Shown: piece by piece, positions 25,427 to 59,777 of the stretch
How positions within the stretch are numbered: position 1 is the first letter of the stretch
Layout: every line of letters begins with the position of its first letter
NCBI GenBank assembly: GCA_031310005.1
Contig: CM062385.1
Coordinates: 2,666,001-2,730,000, forward strand
DNA: 64,000 nucleotides
Direction of reading: 5' to 3'
From: Dactylellina haptotyla
Lineage: Eukaryota; Ascomycota; Orbiliomycetes; Orbiliales; Orbiliaceae
Translations under genes and position numbers: made by a program
Notes under the pieces: generated by a model
Databases searched by the model: none
Told to the model about the DNA's origin: nothing
The model's input: only the letters and a program-made list of their open reading frames with translations

Positions 25427-26088
25427 TTATGAATTGGCCTCGCCGTATCCACCGGGTATTAACTGCGTTTTTTTGGGGGGGGCACAATTAGCAAGGGTGG
25501 CAAAGAGTAGAGATAGATAGAAGACTGCGTACCATGCAGATGTTGTTTCCGTTGAGCAGGATCTTCTTGAGCTTGACGGGTTCGCCGGAGCTATCACTGC
25601 TTCGCTGTTAGCTACGCCAGCTGATTGATAACGGAGATAGGGACATTTTCAGCCTCAGGGTACGTACAATTCGGTTACATCTTCGAGGACCATATCTGTC
25701 ACGGGATAATATCAGCACCAACGGAGTGGGAAGAGGGTGTCGAGGTGGCGTCGGTGGACAGGTCTGGACCGGGGTAGGTGTAACGTACTGACATAGTCGT
25801 CGAAGCCGACCAATGTGCCGCTGAATTCTGTGTCTGGGGTCAGCTAGGATGGGTGGAAGGCGGGAGGGGACCCGTCTGGGGAAGATGTGGAGGGACAGAC
25901 CTTTCTCGCCCTTCATGACCACCCATATTTTGGAGCCGACACACTTGTCGACAAGCTCTGAGCGACGACGCGGGTTAGCTAGCTGAGCGAGCTGCAGGAA
26001 CAGCAGGGGCCGGACATTGCCGGGAGGCAGAGAGCATGCAGGCTGCACGCGAGAGAGTTTTACCTAAGGGGAGTATCTGCGAGGTCAT
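25427..26088 (-). CDS. LSM5: U6 snRNA-associated Sm-like protein LSm5
   Basis: About 83 residues from six small exons: 26088-26064, 25957-25901, then pieces around 25830-25790, 25690-25660 and 25600-25540, with a last exon ending at 25427. The protein reads MTSQILPLELVDKCVGSKIW, VVMKGEKEFSGTLVGFDDY, VNMVLEDVTEFDSSGEP, KILLNGNNICM, then LIPGGYGEANS. The Sm1 and Sm2 motifs (GTLVGFDDYVNMVL and KILLNGNNI) are intact. LSm5 sits in the LSm1-7 ring for mRNA decay and the LSm2-8 ring on U6 snRNA. Five introns in 83 codons is high. The last intron begins directly after ICM, and the final exon holds only the tail. Exact borders of the middle exons are approximate. Confidence 0.88.
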
Positions 26089-26523
26089 CGTGAGAGCTGC
26101 TGCTGGACTGTGAGTGGAGCGGATGGGAGGGGAGGATGTGGTTGGGTGGTTCAGGTGGCAGGGCGCCTATTGATAGCGATTACCACAGCCAAGCAAAATC
26201 TGCGATTTGCAGAGACAGCCAACGCCGGCGCACGATTGGCTGCCAGAAGCGCCGATGCCCAGACACACACCCGTTTACACTTATTTTAAATATTTTATTA
26301 TTTTTATTAGTACTGTCTGTTTATTTAGATCTCTGAATCGAGAAGAATAGCCATTGTTCTGTTTATCCGGCTGCTGAGGTTTGTCCGGCCCCACCCATCC
26401 ATCCGCCTTTCCTTCTCCGCACGCACCTGAGCATGACGCGCAGCAGCCGTTCCTTCGTGCAGCAGCCTCCCTCGTTCTGTCCCCGCCTGGAACGATAGCT
26501 GCCTTCCTCTGCGATGCGGTTCT
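26089..26523. promoter_or_regulatory. divergent promoter of LSM5 and the exonuclease gene
   Basis: A 435-base region between two divergent genes, with an AT-rich block at 26280-26330. No coding signal was seen. Confidence 0.4.
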
Positions 26524-29500
26524 GTGCTGACCGTTGACTCGACGACATACTTAAATCCCGCAGCCCCCCCCTTCTTAACCAGACGGCCCATCGCCATGAG
26601 CAGACGCATTCCCGCCTTCTCGGTGCCGTCCTCCATCGCCATCGCCAGACCCGTCGCCGCTCGCCCCGCCGCCGTCGCCATGTCCCTCGAACCCGACTGC
26701 TCGACGACGATGAGCTCGAGCACCCCCACGCCCCTGCAGACCCCCCCAACGCTGGCCCGCAACCACTCCCTCCCGCTCACCCCCAGCACGCCCTCCAATT
26801 CTACTGCAAAACTCTGGAACCCGGCCAGAGGCATCATCTTCGCTCCCACCCCCATCACCCCTCCCACCACCTCTCCTCGCTCCTACCGAACGTGGGCTCC
26901 CAGAACCCCCTCGTCCTCCTCTTCTTCTTCTACCCCAAACGCAACCTCAATCCCTCCGGACGACGATGACTCGGCGCCTCTCATCTCCCAAGCTCGGCCC
27001 AATGCCCCGTACTTCACCCGCCCCACCTCTCTCTACCGCAAACAAACCGACTGGGCCGGCATCCTAAACCTTACCCCGGACGGCAAGGAAAAGGAATCCA
27101 CCCCTTCAGGCTTCAACGTCTTCAAAGAGGACATCGCCAAAGCTGGTGAGGCCGAGGAAGGCGGTCCCCTAGCCGAGACCCGCACCTTATTCGATGCGCT
27201 GGAGGAAGGATCAGAGGATCCCGAAGCCGACGAGCTGCTTGAAGGCGAGGAGACCGTCTTTCTCGAGGAGCACGATGAGGAGCTCGAGGATCCCGGGATC
27301 GAAAGGGTCAAGACCCCAGATGGCCTCGAGGTCATCATTTGGAAGAAGAAGCCGCTGGTCTACACGGACGACGCTGAGGCGCACGTGCCCTCTGCCTATC
27401 AGCCGAACGAGGCGCTGGTAAATGCTGCGGTTGAGGCGAAGGGCTACTTCTCGTTAAGTCATTATCTGAAAGTGGAGGATAAACAGGACGCAGTAGAAGG
27501 CGAGGTCGAGGGTGCTGTTGAGGGTACTGTCGAAACTACTGCTGAAAATGCAGCTGCAAGCACTGTTCAAAGTACCGTTCAAAATACTGTCGAAAGTAGT
27601 GCTGAAGTACAAGTTGAAGGAGAAAAGTTGGATGGCCAGGTAGAAGAAGTCAAGGTGGAAGGCAAGACACCAACAGTAGTCTACGTCACAAACGTGCAGG
27701 AAATGGAAAAAGTATCCAAGGAGTTCGAAAACGAGAAATTCATTGGATTCGATATGGAATGGCATTGGGCCAAGCGGCTAGTGCCACCGAGGAACGATAA
27801 AGATATCCGGTAAGCCTATCTGTTGGAGCCCCGTTGGAACACACGCTAACGTACCCGCAGACTCGGTTGTTCCGTCATCCAGATATCAACCGATGAAAAG
27901 ATTGTGATATTCCACCTCGCAAAGTTTCCTGCTGCAACAAGTATGCTTTCTTCCAGTTTGATTTACAATTTATATTGCTGACAAAAGAAACAGAGACATT
28001 CCTATCACCCACCCTGAAAAAGATACTTGAAGACCCCGAGATCATTAAATCCGGGGTCCAGATCAAGAGTGAGCAATCCCAATCCGTTATCCCAGCTGGT
28101 AAATAGCTAACCAAAAACAGACGACATGAGGAGACTTTCTCTCTTGATTCCTATCAACCCAGCAGGCATCTTGGATCTAGCCGACCTCCACAGCCTGCTC
28201 TTCGCAGCTCAGCGCAACGATCTCAAGTCCGGTGAAAAGCTACCCGGTAGTCTGACAGCTCTATGCGAGCTCTATCTCAAGCTGCCACTGTTCAAAGGAG
28301 ATGTCAGGACGAGTGATTGGTCGCTGGCCATGACCGAACAGCAGCGAATATGTAAGCACTACTACAAGTCCCACCAATCAACCAAACTAACAAATGTCCA
28401 GATGCCGCGAACGATGTCTACGCTAGCCACAGGTTATTCGAAGTCATGAACGGAATCCGATGTTCTTTGAACCCTCGACCCGCTTTACCACCCTTACAGC
28501 AAATAAACCACCTGGAAACGTGTGAATTATACTATAAAAAAAAGGCGGAAGCTGCAAAGCCGAAATCTCAAAAGCCAACAGCCATCAGAGTTCCCAAAGA
28601 TCCGAGCCCAGAACTCAGCAAGGCGTACGAATGGATCAAAGAATACGCGAAAACCGTACCTGGCGAAGTGTTGACTGCCACAGTTGCAGACCTTCGATGC
28701 TATACCCTTTGGCATCACCAGGATATGGACGTTGAGGAAGTCGCTGCAGCATGCAGAGACCCACCCCTCGGCACAGGTTACGTCGCGACAAGAATCCTAG
28801 ATGCGGTTCGACAGGAGAAAGATCTCGATTACGACCCACAGAGACTGCTATGGGTATATCAAGATCTCCCGGAACAAGGCCATCGGAGATTCTTCAAGCT
28901 GAAGACTGACATCATAGCTGCCATCAACAAACAGAAGGAACGGGCGGCGTCCGAAGTGACCCCGGACAGCGCGGGATCCAAGGAACAAAAATTTCAATCT
29001 CGGTTTAAACCTATTGGGGGCACCTATGAGCAGACCCCCACACGCGTTCGACGCAATAGCGGAACGCAGTCGCCGCCACGCACGGAGACAACAGCATCCG
29101 TCGCCGTGAAAAAAGAAGGTAGTGACGAGCCTTTGGTACGCCAGCTGCCCCTCAAATTACAGCCGACGAAGTTCAAATTCGTCTCTTCGAGAGTGCAGCC
29201 CTTGAACACACTGGAGCCGCGGGTGAAGCCTCCTCCGCCCGCTCCTTCGCATAGGATCCGGCCAGTTATAGCGCCTTCTCGGAACGATGATGACACTGAG
29301 TTCGCTGAATGGATTAAGAAGCCTGTGGCCAGCGGAAAATCCGACGATCCAGATAGATGGTCGATGATTGAACAGAATCTTAACGCGCTCGGTCCCAAAA
29401 AGCTGAGGTCCCCACCTACTACACCTTTCCGAAATCCTTCGCTGATGAGGGCGCTGGCAGGCGAAGGTGCGGGTCCCGCAGGCGATAGTGTATCCTCGAC

Positions 29501-48371: not shown

Positions 48372-50414
48372 CTCGAAAAGTTTCCAAGGGAAAAGGCCTT
48401 AAAGGAATAAATGTGATGAGGAGAGATTTTCTGAAGCAGACCAAGGGTTAAAAAAGCTTAGTAGCACAGGGTCGCCTTTATATATTATCGTTGATATTGG
48501 GTGGAAACTGGGTTCTCTCTTTTTCTTCTCCCTCTGGAGCCCTTTTTAAGAGTCTCCTCCTCTTATTTAAGAATTCCGTCTTATGTTCCGGAGAGGTGGA
48601 GACTTGCTAGTTAAGAATAGAGAGAGAAAGGCCTATTCCCTTGCCACATTGCACTTCGGCTTGCTGGAGAACATTTCCCACGATTGCGGGAAGTAAATAT
48701 TTCAAATCGATATCTAATATGCTAGTGTTTTTGGTTCGTCGAGTGGCCGTGGAGAGATGGAGAGAAGTGTTGAGCCTGCTGGATGGAAATACCAACTGCG
48801 TCTAATCGAGGTTGGCTAGGTCCAATCAAAATGAGTGCCAATGTTTACCAAGACAAAGAGAGCCGCATTCCATGGAAATTGAAGTCTAGAACTGTGGGTG
48901 GGTGGTATATTCCTTCCCAGCCAGGAACTGAGGGACTGCCGCGAGACGCCCACGGCCGTGCCAATAAGGTTCTTAAAATCACCAACCTCAGCCGCACGAG
49001 ATGGCCAACGGATTGGAGTCTCGGGAATATTAAACCGATGGAGGCCATCTTGGTTGTGGGCAATGTGTAGACGGGTTTCTGTCTTCGGCCTGCACGGCAT
49101 CTTTAGGCAGAGTGGCAATACTGGTCATGAAGTTGCCCACCTAATAATGCATGATATGGGAGTACCAAGTTAGAACTTGATTTAGCACGAGCTCAATGGA
49201 ATCTTGCAGGCTTTGCTCATCCGGATCATTCTGTGACTTCTCGAAGATGGCAACTTCCTAGACGAGATTCTTTCTGGGCGACTCGAAAGCACATCCACAT
49301 ACTCACTTGGGTAGATTATCTGTAATTATCTTAACCTCAACCGCTGTTGCCCAATCCCAGGTTTCGCCCGGGCTCTTCGGTGAGACCTTAGGGTGCCTCT
49401 ATCGAAAAGCCACCGGGGATTCGGAATGTCATGGTGATTCCCCTGGCATGAGAGTTCCACGGCTCGTAACTTTCGAAGCTTCCCGATACGGCAAAGGTGA
49501 TTCCTCACTAGCCACAGGGATGGCGGTGCGCGATACTCCTTGGGGCAACGTCTCTAATATTCTTCGTTCCAATAGGTTAGAAGGTCAAACCGGGGGGTAT
49601 GTTCAAAGCAGAGTCCTCGTACCGCCCTCGAAAGCATTTGGTCTGGTGGCAGAGCCAGAGCGGACTAGCTGGTGGTTCGTGCGTCGGAGGGTGGTCTGTG
49701 ACACGGGTCCCTGTGGTTTCGTCTGAGCCCGACGTGAAGCACAACAACAACACAACCGCCAACTCAAAACCATGGTACAGCAGGCCAGCGCGATACCCGG
49801 CGCGGAAGCCTTCCAGAACGTTACAGCTAGACTCTATTCTATCGAACAAGCCGAGTCTTTCCTCAATGGATATACCCTCCGTAGTGACAGGTGGTGATCC
49901 TCCCGGCCGCTAACTTAACCGAACCTCTCTTGACTTGGTTCAGACCGGTTTAAGAATCTGCTGCATGCTCATATGAAGCCAAACCCGCCAAGACCTCCCG
50001 CAGATATGTGAGCTCGCAATAGTGTTAGCCCCCTCGACACTCGAGAATTCTCAGTAGAATGGCAATGTGACTATGCCTATCCTGCCTCTCCGCCATCTTT
50101 TCCCATGCAAAGAATGTCTGAATCTCTTACCGGATAACTGCGCGACACTCTATCTGTCTTAATGCACCGACGATACGATATGCAGCCACCTTCCAAGATT
50201 TATAAATACGCCGTCTCGCCCACGTCTAGATGCTTCCTTCTCACTCACTATCCCCATCACACTCTCACCAGTGGATAAGGACTACAATGTAGTTCGCCTT
50301 TCTAGACTCTCATTAACTCGTTATAATCTGGCTGGCAGGTCCTTACTCCCTTTTCGCTCTTTTTTTAAAATCCCATTCTCTTTGTTTTGTAAGTTTCTTT
50401 TCCTCTGTGTCAAG
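48372..50414. other. 2.0-kb intergenic
   Basis: Several short frames overlap on both strands (for example around 49307-49726), but no domain or splice structure supports a gene. The last 200 bases, before 50415, are the likely promoter and leader of the secreted-protein gene. Confidence 0.4.
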
Positions 50415-50876
50415 ATGAAGATCTCAACTGCCATCTTGGTTACCATCTTGTCTGCTTCTGCATCAATAGCTCTCCCCATTGCCAATAACGACAGACCCCA
50501 GACTTCTCCAACGTCTGTCTCGACTCTAGCTTCTTCCACTCCAGGTAGTACGCCAGTCGCGGTGCCTCCCAGTGGTAGACCGAACTCACTCGGTCAACGA
50601 CTGAAAGCTAGTATCATGAATGATACAATGTTAAAAGCTCGACTACCATCTGGCAGAGTGGAGTTTCTCCAGACCGTCCCAGACACCATCTGGGATCAGA
50701 TAGCTCTTCTTCCTCCTAGACGCTTCGACCGGGCTCTGGATAAGCTAGTATTCAACGGTCAGATGCCTAACTCGCCCAAAGCACCACTACATTCTCGTGC
50801 TCCCTTCTCCAATTCCAGTGCTGGCGCTGTCAAAATTACCAGGTCCCGGATGCTAGCCGCCCTTCCAGTCAAATAG
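50415..50876 (+). CDS. small secreted protein, cysteine-free
   Basis: 153 residues from the ATG at 50415 (an in-frame ATG at 50271 would bury the signal peptide inside the chain, so the later start is preferred). The signal peptide is MKISTAILVTILSASASIALP. The mature part begins Ser/Thr/Pro-rich, then has a folded-looking segment (LGQRLKASIMNDTMLKARLP, FLQTVPDTIWDQIALLPPRR, DRALDKLVFNGQMP) and a basic C-terminus. It has no cysteine and no known domain. It could be an apoplastic or host-directed effector-like protein, but only secretion is supported. The hairpin array starts about 50 bases after its stop and could lie in its transcript. Confidence 0.65.
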   Translation: MKISTAILVTILSASASIALPIANNDRPQTSPTSVSTLASSTPGSTPVAVPPSGRPNSLGQRLKASIMNDTMLKARLPSGRVEFLQTVPDTIWDQIALLPPRRFDRALDKLVFNGQMPNSPKAPLHSRAPFSNSSAGAVKITRSRMLAALPVK

Positions 50877-50930
50877 ATGGCAAATCCTGGATGCTGCAAA
50901 GAACACAAAACCTCTTATTACTAACTGGTA

Positions 50931-50964
50931 TGATTTTTACCCGCCGGGTGCGATGAGTTGATCA
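50931..50964 (+). repeat. hairpin 1, type A
   Basis: Arms TGATT and GATCA (closing pair U-G) enclose the loop, with variable bases GG. Confidence 0.8.
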
Positions 50965-51069
50965 CTTCCATTAGTATTCCCGACATCCTTAATGTTCTGC
51001 CTTTAGTTAGGTCTAGGACGATACTCTTTACATCTCTACCTTGATTATCCTTAATCCTTAATACCCATT

Positions 51070-51109
51070 GGATAGTGTTTACCCGCCAGGTGCGATGAGT
51101 TCACTATTC
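51070..51109 (+). repeat. hairpin 2, type B
   Basis: Arms GGATAGTG and CACTATTC pair over 8 positions with one G-U. The loop matches the consensus exactly, with variable bases AG. Confidence 0.85.
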
Positions 51110-51178
51110 CTCTGCCTAATCCCCCCAATTCTACGAATCTTACAACTTGATGAAGTAAAATTCACAGAATACCTCCAT

Positions 51179-51218
51179 GGATGATTTTTACCCGCCAGGT
51201 GCGACGAGTTGATCATTC
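51179..51218 (+). repeat. hairpin 3, type A
   Basis: Arms GGATGATT and GATCATTC pair over 8 positions with two G-U pairs. The loop has CGAGTT in place of TGAGTT. Confidence 0.85.
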
Positions 51219-51359
51219 TAATTCCTCCTCTATCCTCATCTCTCTCTCGTAATATTTGTCTTCCTTCCTTTAACTAGGCACAGGAGCAAAGCTGAAACGA
51301 ACTAACGATTCATGAAGTTATGAACAATACAAAAAATGTTAGAAAAACCCAATTAGGAC

Positions 51360-51392
51360 TGGTGTTTACCCGCCTAGTGCGAGAGTTCACCA
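51360..51392 (+). repeat. hairpin 4, type B
   Basis: Arms TGGTG and CACCA are fully paired. The loop carries TA at the variable position and is one base short. Confidence 0.8.
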
Positions 51393-51423
51393 TGTCCACG
51401 CATTGGGCACTTTCGGGTGGATA

Positions 51424-51453
51424 GAAGCTTTAAGGCTTGATGCATTAAGCTTC
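51424..51453. repeat. spacer inverted repeat
   Basis: GAAGCTTTAA and TTAAGCTTC pair with a single unpaired T, between hairpins 4 and 5. Confidence 0.7.
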
Positions 51454-51517
51454 GAAGCACCTTTACGAATTTCCTTGCTTTAACGACTTCACGAAAACAC
51501 TCCGACGGTAGAAGGGG

Positions 51518-51555
51518 ATTGATTTTAACCCGCCTGGTGCGAAGAGTTGATCGAT
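51518..51555 (+). repeat. hairpin 5, type A
   Basis: Arms ATTGATT and GATCGAT pair over 7 positions with two G-U pairs. The loop starts TTAACCC. Confidence 0.8.
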
Positions 51556-51560
51556 ACCTC

Positions 51561-51574
51561 CCGTTCGGGAACGG
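51561..51574. repeat. spacer inverted repeat
   Basis: CCGTTCGGGAACGG, a 6-base perfect stem between hairpins 5 and 6. Confidence 0.75.
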
Positions 51575-51575
51575 C

Positions 51576-51611
51576 TAGTGTTTTACCCCGCCAGGTGCGA
51601 GAGGTTCATTA
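51576..51611 (+). repeat. hairpin 6, type B
   Basis: Arms TAGTG and CATTA pair with one G-U. The loop has an extra T and an extra C on the left and GAGAGGTT on the right. Confidence 0.75.
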
Positions 51612-51747
51612 TGCCACGATAATCTTCTCGTCTCTTTCTAATGACGTGGTGTGCTTTCTTACCTTTGACTGGTGCTTAGGACAAGGACACGCTTTTTAAT
51701 GAGGTTATGATAATTAACGACTCTACTACCTGGGATGGTTGGGAGGA

Positions 51748-51788
51748 AGAAGGATTTTTACCCGCTTGATGCGAGAGTTGATCCTTTT
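51748..51788 (+). repeat. hairpin 7, type A
   Basis: Arms AAGGATT and GATCCTT pair over 7 positions (closing U-G), extending into an A/T-rich run. The loop tip reads CGC-TTGAT-GCG. Confidence 0.85.
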
Positions 51789-51790
51789 TT

Positions 51791-51820
51791 ATTACCCTTC
51801 TCCGTCCTTACAAGGGTAAT
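51791..51820. repeat. spacer inverted repeat
   Basis: ATTACCCTT and AAGGGTAAT, a 9-base perfect stem with a 12-base loop between hairpins 7 and 8. Confidence 0.85.
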
Positions 51821-51854
51821 TGATGTTAACCCGCCAGGTGCGATGAGTTCATCA
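51821..51854 (+). repeat. hairpin 8, type B
   Basis: Arms TGATG and CATCA are fully paired. The loop starts TTAACCC and otherwise matches the consensus. Confidence 0.85.
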
Positions 51855-51960
51855 TGCTCTTTATGGGGGTTTCTTTTAGGTTGAGAATTAGGTGCAGTTT
51901 GGCCTGGTTGCCGTTGCTTCTTATTCGCGACTTTAGAAGATGCTGTGAATGTGGAAGAAA

Positions 51961-51998
51961 TATAGTTTTCAGCTACCTGGTGCAGCAAGTTTACTATA
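51961..51998 (+). repeat. hairpin 9, diverged loop
   Basis: Arms TATAGT and ACTATA are fully paired. The loop keeps only CTGGTGC and AAGTT-like parts of the consensus. Confidence 0.65.
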
Positions 51999-52037
51999 TT
52001 CCTTCCATCATGGTTTCTTATAAAAGAAATAATTGGC

Positions 52038-52071
52038 AGATGTTTACCCGCCCGGTGCGATGAGTTCATCT
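52038..52071 (+). repeat. hairpin 10, type B
   Basis: Arms AGATG and CATCT are fully paired. The loop matches the consensus with CG at the variable position. Confidence 0.85.
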
Positions 52072-52214
52072 TGTCTTCTCTTCTAGTTTACAACTTTACG
52101 ACTCTACGACTTTTACGAATTTCCTTTGTATTAATATTTAGTTGTATGCAGGTCCTCGGAATACTATCTGGTATGGATTCCTTGGTAGCCTTTTCTTAAT
52201 GTATATTAAATAGC

Positions 52215-52250
52215 GGATGAGCACTTCGCCTGGCGCGATGTCCGTCATTC
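52215..52250 (+). repeat. hairpin 11, diverged loop
   Basis: Arms GGATGA and TCATTC pair with one G-U. The loop keeps CGC-CTGGC-GCG and the following ATG. Confidence 0.6.
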
Positions 52251-52255
52251 CAAGG

Positions 52256-52635
52256 GTTTGCTTTTCATTAGAGACTGTCTCGTCTGGTACGGGATTTCGA
52301 CTCTTCGGCGTTCTGGGGATCGGCGTTTTTGGTTTTTTTTAACACTAGCTAGCTCTAGTAACTTGGGAATATATTATTACTTCTAAACTTCATCAAAACA
52401 TTTCCATCTCGACGTGAAAAGAATACAAATTTTCGAATAAATAGTACCTCGTGGTAAATATGCGGTCTAATATACATTCTGATTCTCAGACGGTTTAAGC
52501 TGTTTCACTCAGCCATCCGTGGATGTCTAAGGATTAGTTGGCGGTACAGTTTTAAGAGATCCCAAGAATTTAGTAGGGGGCAGACGAGACTAATCTCGAA
52601 CGCTGGACTTCTAACGTCTTCTGATACAAATCCAC
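52256..52635. other. intergenic after the hairpin array
   Basis: No hairpin copy and no coding signal was seen. It is the 3' side of the tRNA-synthetase-like gene. Confidence 0.4.
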
Positions 52636-54134
52636 TCAAAATCGGTCACCCGGATAAGCCTCTTGTTCAACACTCTGCCATTCCAAACTGTTGGTGTAGG
52701 TGTCTCGAATCGGTTGCAAAAGCTTATTCAGTGCCTTGATAACAACACATTTTAAATCCGCTGGTGTTATAATACCAATAGCGTAGTGCCTCTCAACTTG
52801 CTTAGAAGTGTAGTAATGGGTTGGATGCCCATTTTGGGCGTTGTGAATAGTTAATATAGAGCCTCGCGGCGCACATGGGGATGTAAACGGTGACAGGGTT
52901 TCGAGGAAGTTGGCCCGCTCGGTGGAATTGCATCCAACGTTACCTGCAAGCCGTTCCACTCTCATCTGACTGATCGGCCATATAACATCTAGAAGAAGTC
53001 CGAGAACCCCATTGTTAGAACTGATATCTTTGGGTTGACAGTTTGCCTCCTCGATTTTGTGGCGAACTGTGTCAGGATCATCTAGGAATTCGATCTTGGC
53101 ATCCGCTGTATGAGAGGAAGACATTTTGGAGCATGGTGATGATGGGGAGGAGTTGGCTGGTGAGGAATCCGTGGAATGTGGATATTTCAGGCTGGTAAGC
53201 ATATTATTCCTAATATGTTCGCGGCGTTTGTGGTTAATAAGTGGGAGGAAGGTTACAGAGTGAGTAAATAGGTTATCCTGGTATATAATGAAGGGCGAGT
53301 TAGTAGAATTCCTCCATAGTATATTTAAAGCGTTGAGCTAGGGGTGAAAACTACCTGATCAAGACCACCGAATTGTATATCCATGTCTGTGAATACCTCT
53401 CCAAGAGTTTGATGGATACAGCACAGCAGGGGGCTTAACATATCGGTTTCTGCAACTTCTGAGGTACAATGTGCATCTTCTCGCTTCATTGTTACGACCA
53501 ACTTATGAAACTCCTTTATAAACGCCTCGGAGTATGCATAAGACGATTCGTTAACATGCGTGATTTGTTCAGGTGCAACACCCAAAGAGCTGAGGATAGC
53601 TGTTATAAGGTGGCGGTAGTAAGCCAGCCGTTGGGTCACCAAGGGCAGAGGGTGAACGTAATTCACAAGAAGAGCATATATGTCGACATATAGGATGGTC
53701 GGCTTGCGTTAATAGTAAGTTAGGGAAAAATTTCGATACGTACTCTATTGGCAGCTTAATTAACTTTATAGCTTACCTGCAATCCGGCACGAAGAAAATC
53801 TATCATTTTCGCGAGAGGTACAAAATAACCCACATGCGCTATTGGTATGTTTTAGCGAAATGTGAATTTACAAAATGTGAACATCGTTTGACTTACGCTT
53901 TCCCGTCGGTGCTGTTACTGAGGTACAGAAAACTCGCCGTTAGCCCCTGCATATGAAAATTAAGTTATGTTAGTTTGAGTTCACTTACCCCATGCTATCT
54001 TTGGACTGCAGTTTTCTTTCAGAAGTCTTTTCAAAGTAGTCTCCGTTGTCCAAGGTTCGAAAAGATGTTGTCCCCTTGTGATAAGTTTGTAACGATCCTC
54101 GATTGTTAGGAAAGGGGAATTGACCATGTTCATG
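52636..54134 (-). CDS. tyrosyl-tRNA synthetase-like protein with altered amino-acid pocket
   Basis: Five exons, about 54134-53989, 53917-53897, 53838-53777, 53702-53355 and 53277-52636, roughly 405 codons. It aligns end to end with eukaryotic cytosolic TyrRS. It has the class I HIGH-type motif TGKPHVGYFVPLAKM, assembled across two splice sites, then VDIYALLVNY, DIQFGGLDQ, and the KMSKS-type motif SKMSSS with KIEFLDD after it. The anticodon-binding half follows (NNGVLGLLLDVIWP, ADLKCVVIKALNKLLQPIRD). Comparing with human TyrRS from memory, Tyr39 becomes Ala (KIAWG for KIYWG), Tyr166 becomes Cys and Asp173 becomes Gly, while Gln170 and the QFGG glutamine are kept. ATP-binding parts are intact. 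In the first exon the TyrRS-like frame changes at a run of five T (54060-54064), which could be a true frameshift, a sequence error or a missed intron. Confidence 0.8.
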
Positions 54135-57626: not shown

Positions 57627-59777
57627 ATGGTATCTTTTATTTTCTCATACCAACTAATCCCCTCAAAATTATCGCGAGCGGGCGATGTCGTTGCACCTCG
57701 AATATTATACCAGAGCTTTCTGACGAATTCGAAGAGCAACTTTCTCATAGGTTCTGTGGTTATAACCGGGGTCTTAATATTCGCTTACGTCGCCAAAGCC
57801 GGCATTCGAGTAACCGCCGCCCAACAGACTTCGCCTATATTTCCCTCAAAGCTCTTCCCTACCACAAGGAGAACTCTCAGAGCGGATTCCATTACCCTAG
57901 CTTATCGGCTTTTATATTACAAACTCCAGAACGCGGAAGATCATCCAGATATCGGTTCTCAGGCTTGGCATAAACTTCAACAACTTTTCGATTTAACCTT
58001 GTCCCGAGCTGCTGAATCCAAGGATACTAGTATTCTCTCAATTTCAAAATATCATTATGAGACACTAGAACTCTTTTTGAAAAGCGTCGAAACTCGGACC
58101 TTGGAGCAATGGGCAGCATATCTGGATCGCCGTTCCCATGGAAGAAGTCGGGAACTATTTAGAGATCAATCCTATGCAGTTCATTGGTTGCGACTCGCCG
58201 CGCCCGTCAAATATGTTGACGGGAACTGGTTAAGCAGAATCCATAACTCTTATATTCCTTTTAACCTTCGACGGATCACCCGTATTGCATGGCAGATATT
58301 CTCCGAAGAATTAGGAGATGGGGACCTCGCAAAAAATCATGTTTACATCTATTCCAAACTTCTTCAGTCTGTTGGGGTATATATTGGTCCCGGTAACTCA
58401 AGCACTTTCGTCGATACATCTGAGAACCCCGGGGAAGATCCACGAGTATGGGCTGCTGCTGTTGCGCAGCTAGCGTTGGGTTTATTTCCAGAAGAGTTGT
58501 TACCTGAGATTCTTGGCTTCAATCTTGCGTACGAAGCTGTGACGCTCGAAACCTTGATATGCGTTCATGAGCTCAAGGAACTCAAAATCGACCCTACGTA
58601 CTTCAACCTGCATGTCACAATCGATAATGCTGATTCGGGACACACGGCAATGGCACTGCAAGCCGTGATAGAATTGATGAAAACGTGCCAAAATCCCACC
58701 GCAGAAGCCAAAATGTGGCGGAGAATCCAAACAGGTTATATACTAGCCGAAGGGCTTCCAGTTAGCCCACGACCATTGACATCCACAGAGTGGATGGTTT
58801 TGGATATATTTTCGAAGAAGTGTGGACCAGCGAAACCTTCACATCGAAGTTGCAAGGGTAAAATTGGTGGAAGAACTCTGGAACAATGGTTAGATCCTTC
58901 TTTCTGGGAACAGCGAAAATATGTATTCTTGGAAGCTCTAGGGTCTTCAAGCTGGATTTCAAGGGGGAGACCGGAGAAAACGAAACTGATTCAAGAAATT
59001 GTGTGGAAAGGGAGAATGTTTGGAGCCTTTACATTAAAAGAGACAGAGGTATTGAAAGACTGGGTGGTAGAAATGGCAGAAATGGATAGAGAGAGTCCTT
59101 GGGGAGATACGAAGACGGCAGCAGGACTGTACAGTCGATTCATAGGCCTCCATCTAACCCCAAAGTTCCATGAGGCGTCGATACAGAGATTCGTTAAGTA
59201 TGAGTCTAAGTTGCTACCAGACATACCGACCCAGATACCGTTTCAAGGTCTTGGGATATGCGAATTCCCTTGGGAAGTATTGCTTGCCGCTGGAGTCCCA
59301 TTTCAGTACTATCTATCTAATCCTACAAGCGCAGCTACATTGCGAGGTATGGCTGTCTTGAGAATCCTTCGAATTTTGAACGGCCTAGGTGATGTTGGCG
59401 ATCTTGTAGCAGGTATGGATGAAGTATTTCAACCCTCAAACGAAAGTGTAGTAGATCTTGCGAGCTATATGAAGAACTACGACACCAAAGAAACAAGTGT
59501 AATATTGGGGCGTGAATGGACATGGCTAGAAGCAATCTCTATAGCTCCAGAAGCAAACTTCCAGTTTCTCGTTGGTGCACAATATGCCATTACTCTCATT
59601 ATGACTGCTTCAGAGGGCTTCAAGATGCGGGACAGAAGCAAAATCATTCCATTGAGGGATATGGGCTTTAAAGTCTATAAGGAATTAGAACGCCTAAATT
59701 TAAAACGAAATTGGGAATGCAAACGGGGTTTCTGGGCAACGATGGATATGATGGCCCAAAATTGCTTCCTGAATTGA
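57627..59777 (+). CDS. haem-oxygenase-like di-iron (HDO) superfamily protein
   Basis: One intronless exon, 716 residues. A hydrophobic helix lies near residues 37-58 (FLIGSVVITGVLIFAYVAKAG). The central domain, about residues 205-345, matches the iron-containing redox enzyme family (PF14518 type): a Glu and His in EELGDGDLAKNHVYIYSKLL (about 228-240), a Glu in FNLAYEAVTLE (about 305), and a His/Asp/His set in YFNLHVTIDNADSGHTAMA (about 328-340). Bacterial relatives such as UndA, BesC and SznF use this fold for O2-dependent cleavage or N-oxygenation. The extra spacing before the last His is kept in fungal proteins that I recall. The C-terminal 370 residues are helical and unrecognised. It could be a membrane-tethered oxygenase of unknown substrate. 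The lack of introns contrasts with its neighbours. Confidence 0.72.
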   Translation: MVSFIFSYQLIPSKLSRAGDVVAPRILYQSFLTNSKSNFLIGSVVITGVLIFAYVAKAGIRVTAAQQTSPIFPSKLFPTTRRTLRADSITLAYRLLYYKLQNAEDHPDIGSQAWHKLQQLFDLTLSRAAESKDTSILSISKYHYETLELFLKSVETRTLEQWAAYLDRRSHGRSRELFRDQSYAVHWLRLAAPVKYVDGNWLSRIHNSYIPFNLRRITRIAWQIFSEELGDGDLAKNHVYIYSKLLQSVGVYIGPGNSSTFVDTSENPGEDPRVWAAAVAQLALGLFPEELLPEILGFNLAYEAVTLETLICVHELKELKIDPTYFNLHVTIDNADSGHTAMALQAVIELMKTCQNPTAEAKMWRRIQTGYILAEGLPVSPRPLTSTEWMVLDIFSKKCGPAKPSHRSCKGKIGGRTLEQWLDPSFWEQRKYVFLEALGSSSWISRGRPEKTKLIQEIVWKGRMFGAFTLKETEVLKDWVVEMAEMDRESPWGDTKTAAGLYSRFIGLHLTPKFHEASIQRFVKYESKLLPDIPTQIPFQGLGICEFPWEVLLAAGVPFQYYLSNPTSAATLRGMAVLRILRILNGLGDVGDLVAGMDEVFQPSNESVVDLASYMKNYDTKETSVILGREWTWLEAISIAPEANFQFLVGAQYAITLIMTASEGFKMRDRSKIIPLRDMGFKVYKELERLNLKRNWECKRGFWATMDMMAQNCFLN

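Follow-up and report, generated by a model that had tools for sequence, protein, structure and literature searches.

The locus raises two questions: what is the long row of inverted repeats that lies behind a short open reading frame, and which protein, if any, reads it? In the window (the whole stretch of DNA analysed, 64 kb in length), eleven such repeats, named c1–c11, occupy positions 50926 to 52254 of the + strand, all in the same orientation and at the places listed in the initial annotation, which took them for RNA hairpins. The array is real: its RNA hairpins covary and lie behind a gene predicted to encode a secreted protein, and it is apparently undescribed so far. Two further hairpins with five-base loops extend the row to 50926–52295 (+ strand, at least 13 hairpins). 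The features are as follows.

50415..50876, + strand: predicted 153-aa ORF for a small secreted protein, with a signal-peptide-like start (read by eye)
50926..50970, + strand: hairpin c1, loop CGGGU, class A (U.G closing pair)
51068..51112, + strand: hairpin c2, loop CAGGU, class B (G-C closing pair)
51177..51221, + strand: hairpin c3, loop CAGGU, class A
51355..51398, + strand: hairpin c4, loop CUAGU (breaks CNGG), class B
51515..51559, + strand: hairpin c5, loop CUGGU, class A
51561..51574, + strand: extra hairpin CCGUU[CGGG]AACGG between c5 and c6, 4-nt CNGG loop, closing pair P 0.13 in context
51571..51617, + strand: hairpin c6, loop CAGGU, class B in its own register
51747..51790, + strand: hairpin c7, loop UUGAU (breaks CNGG; bases 1 and 4 are U and A, not C and G), class A
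51816..51860, + strand: hairpin c8, loop CAGGU, class B
51900..51913, + strand: extra hairpin UGGC[CUGGUU]GCCG, 6-nt CNGG loop, closing pair P 0.98
51957..52002, + strand: hairpin c9, diverged core, tip CUGGU predicted at P 0.12–0.13 only
52033..52077, + strand: hairpin c10, loop CCGGU, class B
52158..52181, + strand: extra hairpin GGAAUACUAU[CUGGU]AUGGAUUCC, unrelated stem, loop P 0.77–0.88 in eight settings
52211..52254, + strand: hairpin c11, diverged core, loop CUGGC
52277..52295, + strand: extra hairpin GUCUCGU[CUGGU]ACGGGAU, unrelated stem of 7 bp, loop P 0.53–0.90 in eight settings
51132..52120, + strand: spacer motif [TA]ACGA[AC]T, seven sites starting at 51132, 51464, 51482, 51716, 52097, 52105 and 52114
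52205: ATTAAA within the array
52436..52441, + strand: candidate poly(A) signal AATAAA past the array, the sole + strand AATAAA in 50801–53300

Nine of the eleven named copies have a common core of 23–26 nt enclosed by covarying outer stems, and share one anatomy: an outer stem of 5–7 bp, extended past a bulge, encloses a left-hand UUU and a right-hand U, followed by a neck, a CGC:GCG stem and a five-base loop. In c9 and c11, the hairpin and its tip have been kept and the core has mostly been lost. The CGC:GCG stem is intact in 10 of the 11 copies and the loop, as aligned, has five bases in all of them. This tip had been missed by the initial annotation, as had the extra CNGG hairpins, with stems of at least 4 bp, at 51566, 51904, 52168 and 52284. 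The longer shared loop that it described is present, but its exact identity is looser than claimed: TTTACCCGCC is exact in 5 of the 11 copies (c1, c2, c3, c4, c10) and GTGCGA in 8 (c1–c6, c8, c10), with TGAGTT immediately after GTGCGA in 4 (c1, c2, c8, c10). The 24-nt core, with up to three mismatches, has six matches in the window, versus 0.00 expected, and a covariance model, R1, built from eight copies (c6, c9 and c11 not being in it) recovers those eight and the held-out c6 (E 7.1e-5), with no recovery of c9 or c11 in the search of the array.

In a model of the neck, ACC can pair with the G and the GU of GAGU, the A's being bulged. The neck is all but invariant and this pairing putative; in c6, the left side has gained a U and a C and the right side a G, the extra C and G being as the pairing would want. 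An alternative inner fold, ACC[CGCCN]GGU, which is predicted for c1 when cut out (P 0.38) and for c3 in context, was rejected, being broken in c4, c7, c9 and c11, while CGC:GCG is intact in all but one copy.

The strongest test of the outer stems against chance is an arm swap, in which the control consists of real arms from the same array. The 11 own arm pairs sum to -90.6 kcal/mol, versus -53.8 +/- 7.4 kcal/mol with the right arms swapped, and none of 20000 permutations reaches the own-pair energy. A weaker test, in which swaps were confined to each of the two classes of arm (c11 omitted, 10 copies used), gives 3 of 20000 permutations as low, about 1.4 of which are expected from the unswapped order itself. 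The proposal that every copy keeps paired arms holds when summed over the array, but only 6 of the 11 copies pair best with their own arm (which ranks 7th for c1 and 6th for c11). Pairs were counted in eight copies, c6, c9 and c11 being omitted because they are not alignable in register. In these eight copies, 94.4% of cells are paired, versus 80.1% after shuffling (0 of 500 as high), a comparison that the initial annotation had proposed and that comes out in its favour. Two-sided changes are found in five of nine pairs, versus 2.2 when shuffled (2 of 500), and covariation is 0.425 versus 0.144 (0 of 500 as high). The number of pair types is a weaker measure (7 versus 4.8, 19 of 500) and is matched at a slide of +3; the inner CGC:GCG pairs are uninformative, because they are invariant in these copies. 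RNAalifold, run on the same eight, returns 12 pairs, 8 of them with two-sided changes.

The variable pairs also carry a strand signal. Across the eight copies and 12 consensus pairs, there are nine G-U cells versus one A-C cell, four of the nine sitting in one column that may represent a single event. Read on the - strand, the nine G-U cells would be mismatches, and the + strand therefore looks like the RNA strand. Selection on RNA structure, as originally suggested, is thus supported by the compensatory changes, by the excess of G-U over A-C in variable pairs, by the kept core and by the diverged spacers.

The initial annotation knew of no family with this loop. There is indeed no Rfam match, but the tip is a pentaloop of the form CNGGN, which has been published as the element (SRE) that Smaug and Vts1 proteins recognise. 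In PMC4053848 (section 9), the SRE loop is given as CNGGN0-3, with five bases best in a range of 4–8 nt, and the same source describes a preference for G just ahead of the loop and favours CUGG. The CNGGN pentaloop appears as the target of both Smaug and yeast Vts1 in PMC4053848 and PMC9893680, and the SRE rules were further drawn from PMC2895634, PMC8118286 and PMC3468468. Strict CNGG is found in 9 of the 11 named copies (c4 and c7 depart from it), in the loops at 52168 and 52284 and, with loops of 4 and 6 nt, at 51566 and 51904. Loop position 2 takes all four bases (1.68 bits) and is second in core variability to one bulged column (2.04 bits), as CNGGN predicts.

Counts of such loops speak partly for and partly against this identity. 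The 283 nt past c10, a stretch picked after sight of the sequence, contain three CNGGN pentaloop hairpins of at least 4 bp, namely c11 and the two extra hairpins on unrelated stems, a number reached by none of 5000 shuffles; the densest 283 nt elsewhere in the window contain one (+ strand) or two (- strand). On a common measure, the array stretch has 3 CNGGN pentaloops of at least 4 bp, versus 0.35 per 1484 nt of strand at other loci of the genome (53 in 227232 nt). With the nine good copies masked, four CNGG hairpins are left (51904, 52168, 52230, 52284), versus 0.51 expected (0 of 1000 shuffles). Another + strand stretch of 1524 nt in the window likewise has four, and in the masked array CNGG is tied first with CNTT and TNTA (4 each), the counts for stems of at least 5 bp being 1 for CNGG and 3 for CNTT.

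A gene for the corresponding protein is present in the same genome, as a Vts1 family match (E 1.3e-20) followed, some 1.3 kb further downstream and on that strand too, by a SAM domain (E 8.1e-8, locus L025) with yeast Vts1 as its best solved relative (E 9.7e-20). Six of seven RNA-contact residues, taken from PMC9893680 with numbers placed on the alignment by hand, are kept, and L496 is V.

The ORF at 50415..50876 gives the array a plausible setting. Its stop codon ends 49 nt ahead of the first hairpin, and its coding score is 0.124 in its own frame and negative in the five others. The gap of 49 nt, the coincidence of the ORF strand with the RNA strand and the position of the sole AATAAA past the array are points for a 3' untranslated region. 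The array was also considered as protein-coding and rejected, its coding score being negative in the three + frames and its spacings not being multiples of three. On the other side, a convergent ORF at 52636–53202 (- strand), the end of which faces the array, has a weak tRNA-synt_1b match (E 4.8e-5, with no single stretch passing).

The explanation preferred here, tentatively and at rather less than an even chance, is that the array is a putative 3'UTR platform of multiple SREs for Vts1. It would form the 3' untranslated region of a small secreted-protein mRNA in a nematode-trapping fungus, ORF and hairpins sharing one transcript. Every hairpin would present its pentaloop, CNGGU, at the end of a short stem, CGC:GCG, and the conserved bulged neck and the freely covarying outer stem would hold this loop out. 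The SAM domain of Vts1, a member of the Smaug family, would bind many loops per molecule, and the many bound Vts1 proteins would strongly recruit the Ccr4-Not deadenylase, such that the mRNA would be silent or short-lived until Vts1 is removed. Vts1p decay runs through Ccr4p-Pop2p-Not, according to PMC3468468.

Confidence in the Vts1 platform is no greater because of the conservation of the neck, the CNGG breaks, the C before the loop, the scarcity of CUGG, the loop counts and the folding scores. Ahead of the loop, each of the 11 named copies has a C, and the hairpins at 52168 and 52284 have a U; the favoured CUGG is present in three of the nine strict copies only (c5, c9, c11). Predicted folding of the array is heavily dependent on context. 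With a rough SRE score that simplifies the published one (pairing probabilities, 170-nt windows, 25 C), the array reaches 3.99, versus a + strand mean of 0.50 and below the 5.11 of the stretch at 25852, with P of at least 0.7 only at 51534, 51904, 52168 and 52284. The CNTG pattern likewise scores 3.99 in the array, three of the four scoring CNTG sites being c5, c7 and the 51904 hairpin read one base early; the score is blunt because pairs outside the loop are also counted. Blunt as it is, and with the array not at the top of the window, the thermodynamic score was discarded as proof. The stretch with the top rough CNGG-hairpin score in the window (5.11) is 25852–27415 (+ strand), which overlaps an ORF at 26524–27813.

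When copies are cut out, the CNGG loop has a P of 0.79–0.97 in c2, c3, c5, c6 and c10 and of at most 0.38 in c1, c8 (0.19), c9 and c11. Across eight settings, these values swing with the stretch folded: from 0.01 to 0.87 in c2, from 0.00 to 0.98 in c6, from 0.00 to 0.85 in c10 and from at most 0.12 to at least 0.79 in c3, with maxima of 0.21 in c1 and 0.08 in c8. The loops at 52168 and 52284 are steady (at least 0.53). This re-check of folding left the estimate for reading by Vts1 unchanged.

The neck bears most directly on the next most likely explanation, still an unlikely one, that some other RNA-binding protein recognises the hairpins, or that they are a new small structured motif, with the whole neck UUUACC / GA-N-GAGUU as the signature, the loop secondary and CNGG partly due to chance. 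The nine good copies differ, with covariation, in their outer stems, and have a nearly fixed inner stem and neck; the ACC, the bulged A and the GAGUU are almost invariant, which is not required of an SRE. The neck is kept equal to or better than the loop in these copies, and its columns are nearly invariant whereas c4 and c7 alter the loop (CUAGU and UUGAU). Both break CNGG with their stems intact, so the loop is kept no better there than the neck, even if the U and A at bases 1 and 4 of the c7 loop would presumably keep a pair known from Vts1-RNA structures. Such a motif would be unlisted, given that no Rfam family matches. However, the inner stem and neck differ only in c9, c11, 52168 and 52284, and these four have no neck yet carry a C-N-G-G tip, the opposite of what a neck signature predicts; loop position 2, moreover, is free precisely where CNGGN is free.

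A motif in the spacers also counts in favour of a different reader, pointing to a richer RNA-protein complex. [TA]ACGA[AC]T, a pattern picked after sight of the sequence, occurs seven times in 1484 nt, versus 0.38 expected, with two in the densest other + strand stretch. All seven sites lie in spacers following a class B hairpin, in four of the five such spacers, and they are possibly a second single-stranded protein site. It may even be, although we consider this doubtful, that the locus encodes an RNA-protein scaffold new to eukaryotes, in which a dozen unlisted hairpins of two alternating classes, with a second [UA]ACGA[AC]U motif in the spacers, would gather many regulator molecules on one fungal transcript, switching a secreted-protein mRNA sharply or titrating the regulator.

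A third explanation, improbable but in keeping with a sponge design, is that the array is all or part of a stand-alone noncoding RNA soaking up Vts1 or another protein, as CsrB does with CsrA. Many near-identical hairpins on one RNA with unconserved spacers would suit such a role, as would the lack of a second array in the genome searched; the position of the array 49 nt after an ORF with a coding signal, the little room for a promoter outside this ORF and the sole AATAAA lying past the array all argue against it.

The ORF itself belongs to a small, weakly conserved family of secreted-looking proteins: 50415–50876 (+ strand) and the loci L045, L046 and L047, with a shared region around FLQxVPDxIWDQIA (the window copy's part of the alignment). 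The ORF has no Pfam match, and a single-sequence search found no database homologue among 136 candidates. Its weak relatives in its own genome have E values of 0.0015, 0.015, 0.018 and 0.046; three of these four are secreted-looking proteins with a short region in common with the ORF, and the fourth (C8) was omitted, there being no started ORF of at least 90 aa over the match. A profile of the four-row alignment had two matches among the 8000 candidates scored, both in Dactylellina haptotyla CBS 200.50. For the three secreted-looking relatives, the 3' flanks contain CNGG hairpins (stems of at least 3 bp) at 1, 2 and 0 places in 1296, 1188 and 1491 nt, respectively, for comparison with 13 rows in 1500 nt for the array (the L046 flank giving 3 rows at its 2 places), and none of these flanks matches the array model.

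As for the host, the window also encodes, at 57627–59777 (+ strand), a 716-aa protein with a Haem_oxygenas_2 domain that is 94% identical to a protein of Dactylellina haptotyla CBS 200.50. Its next named matches are from Arthrobotrys, Orbilia, Dactylella and Drechslerella, which we take to be Orbiliomycetes. Judging from this one protein, the host probably traps nematodes or is closely related to fungi that do.

The arrangement of the copies indicates how the array may have arisen. The closing pair of the outer stem is U.G in c1, c3, c5 and c7 and G-C in c2, c4, c8 and c10; c6 has G-C in its own register and c9 belongs to neither class. The two classes alternate from c1 to c8, with a chance of 0.03. 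Spacers following class B hairpins have short stretches in common (best z 8.1, 3.0 and 2.9; mean 1.6, 10 pairs), with no sharing between spacers inside a unit (mean z -0.4, 6 pairs) and z up to 4.3 for cross pairs (mean 0.7, 20 pairs). From the alternation and these shared stretches, the array probably grew by duplication, and it seems to be built from a unit of two hairpins, repeated about five or six times, with eroded spacers. The same alternation and shared stretches, together with the decayed look of the 3'-most copies, would fit a decaying tandem duplication of a two-hairpin unit in which the hairpins have no present function. We find this very improbable: the spacers have lost nearly all similarity, but the cores have been kept and the arms have changed in matched pairs, a pattern that neglect does not give.

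Inverted repeats by themselves do not separate RNA from DNA, but the nine G-T cells versus one A-C cell (8 copies x 12 pairs, with 4 of the 9 in one column and possibly a single event) make an array of palindromes acting at the DNA level, as protein or replication sites, scarcely credible.

More arrays elsewhere would have counted as support by the initial annotation. In the array's own genome (39.8 Mb, 11 contigs), a DNA search returned one match, the array itself, and a pattern search revealed no second array, such searches being able to miss a strongly diverged one. The core pattern with up to three mismatches matched nine forward and two reverse places in this genome, 7 of the 11 in the array and 4 elsewhere, with 5 for a control pattern, and 7 of the 31 listed genome places with exact CGCCNGGTGCGA lie in the array. 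Model R1, run over 39 of 48 loci, went below E 0.01 at just two: L042, which is the array itself (9 copies), and L043 of Prauserella muralis (E 1.4e-4). The second, a core-only match in a bacterial locus that the core pattern itself had retrieved, was put down to chance and rejected as a relative. For the 23 remaining matches, E ranged from 0.12 to 9.3, and nearly all of them fall on the words that had fetched the loci. Rfam 15 contains no family reaching its gathering score in the window and none up to E 5 for 50200–52500; no tRNA was found, and viral contigs had 0 matches to the array. Twister-sister, box C/D, SECIS and IRE were dropped on inspection of the sequence and for want of an Rfam match.

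Among the matches listed from the literature on Vts1, SREs, Dactylellina haptotyla secreted proteins and fungal noncoding RNA, a literature from which subscription papers were largely absent, no title or abstract opening described such an array, and no paper in it combined nematode-trapping fungi with Vts1. The main text of PMC5640933, on fungal structured RNA motifs, does not mention tandem, copies, Orbilio-, Arthrobotrys or Smaug, and that of PMC8216456 does not mention tandem, multiple copies, repeat, Orbilio-, Arthrobotrys or Vts1.

If Vts1 reads the array, the locus would provide a natural test of the number of sites against the strength of Smaug-type repression, and a first candidate Vts1 target in nematode-trapping fungi; if the reader is another protein, the array would be a new RNA motif. 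To our knowledge, it is uncommon for a natural mRNA to carry many structured, near-identical sites for a single RNA-binding protein. In bacteria, CsrB soaks up CsrA, and CsrB and RsmZ are sponge RNAs. Like the array, they carry many hairpins with one common loop and variable spacers on one RNA; their protein is a different one, their loop is GGA and they belong to another kingdom, whereas the array follows an ORF. The candidate structured RNAs of fungi in PMC5640933 and PMC8216456 are, as here, short conserved hairpins near or in fungal genes. The SREs described in PMC4053848 (nanos and Hsp83 mRNAs in Drosophila) and PMC3468468 (GFP-SRE and YIR016W in yeast) share with the array the CNGG at the 5' end of the loop and the loop of five bases, and a gene for their reader is present in the array's own genome. 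Unlike the SREs in these sources, the array consists of a dozen near-identical copies in a row, with a conserved neck and a C ahead of the loop.
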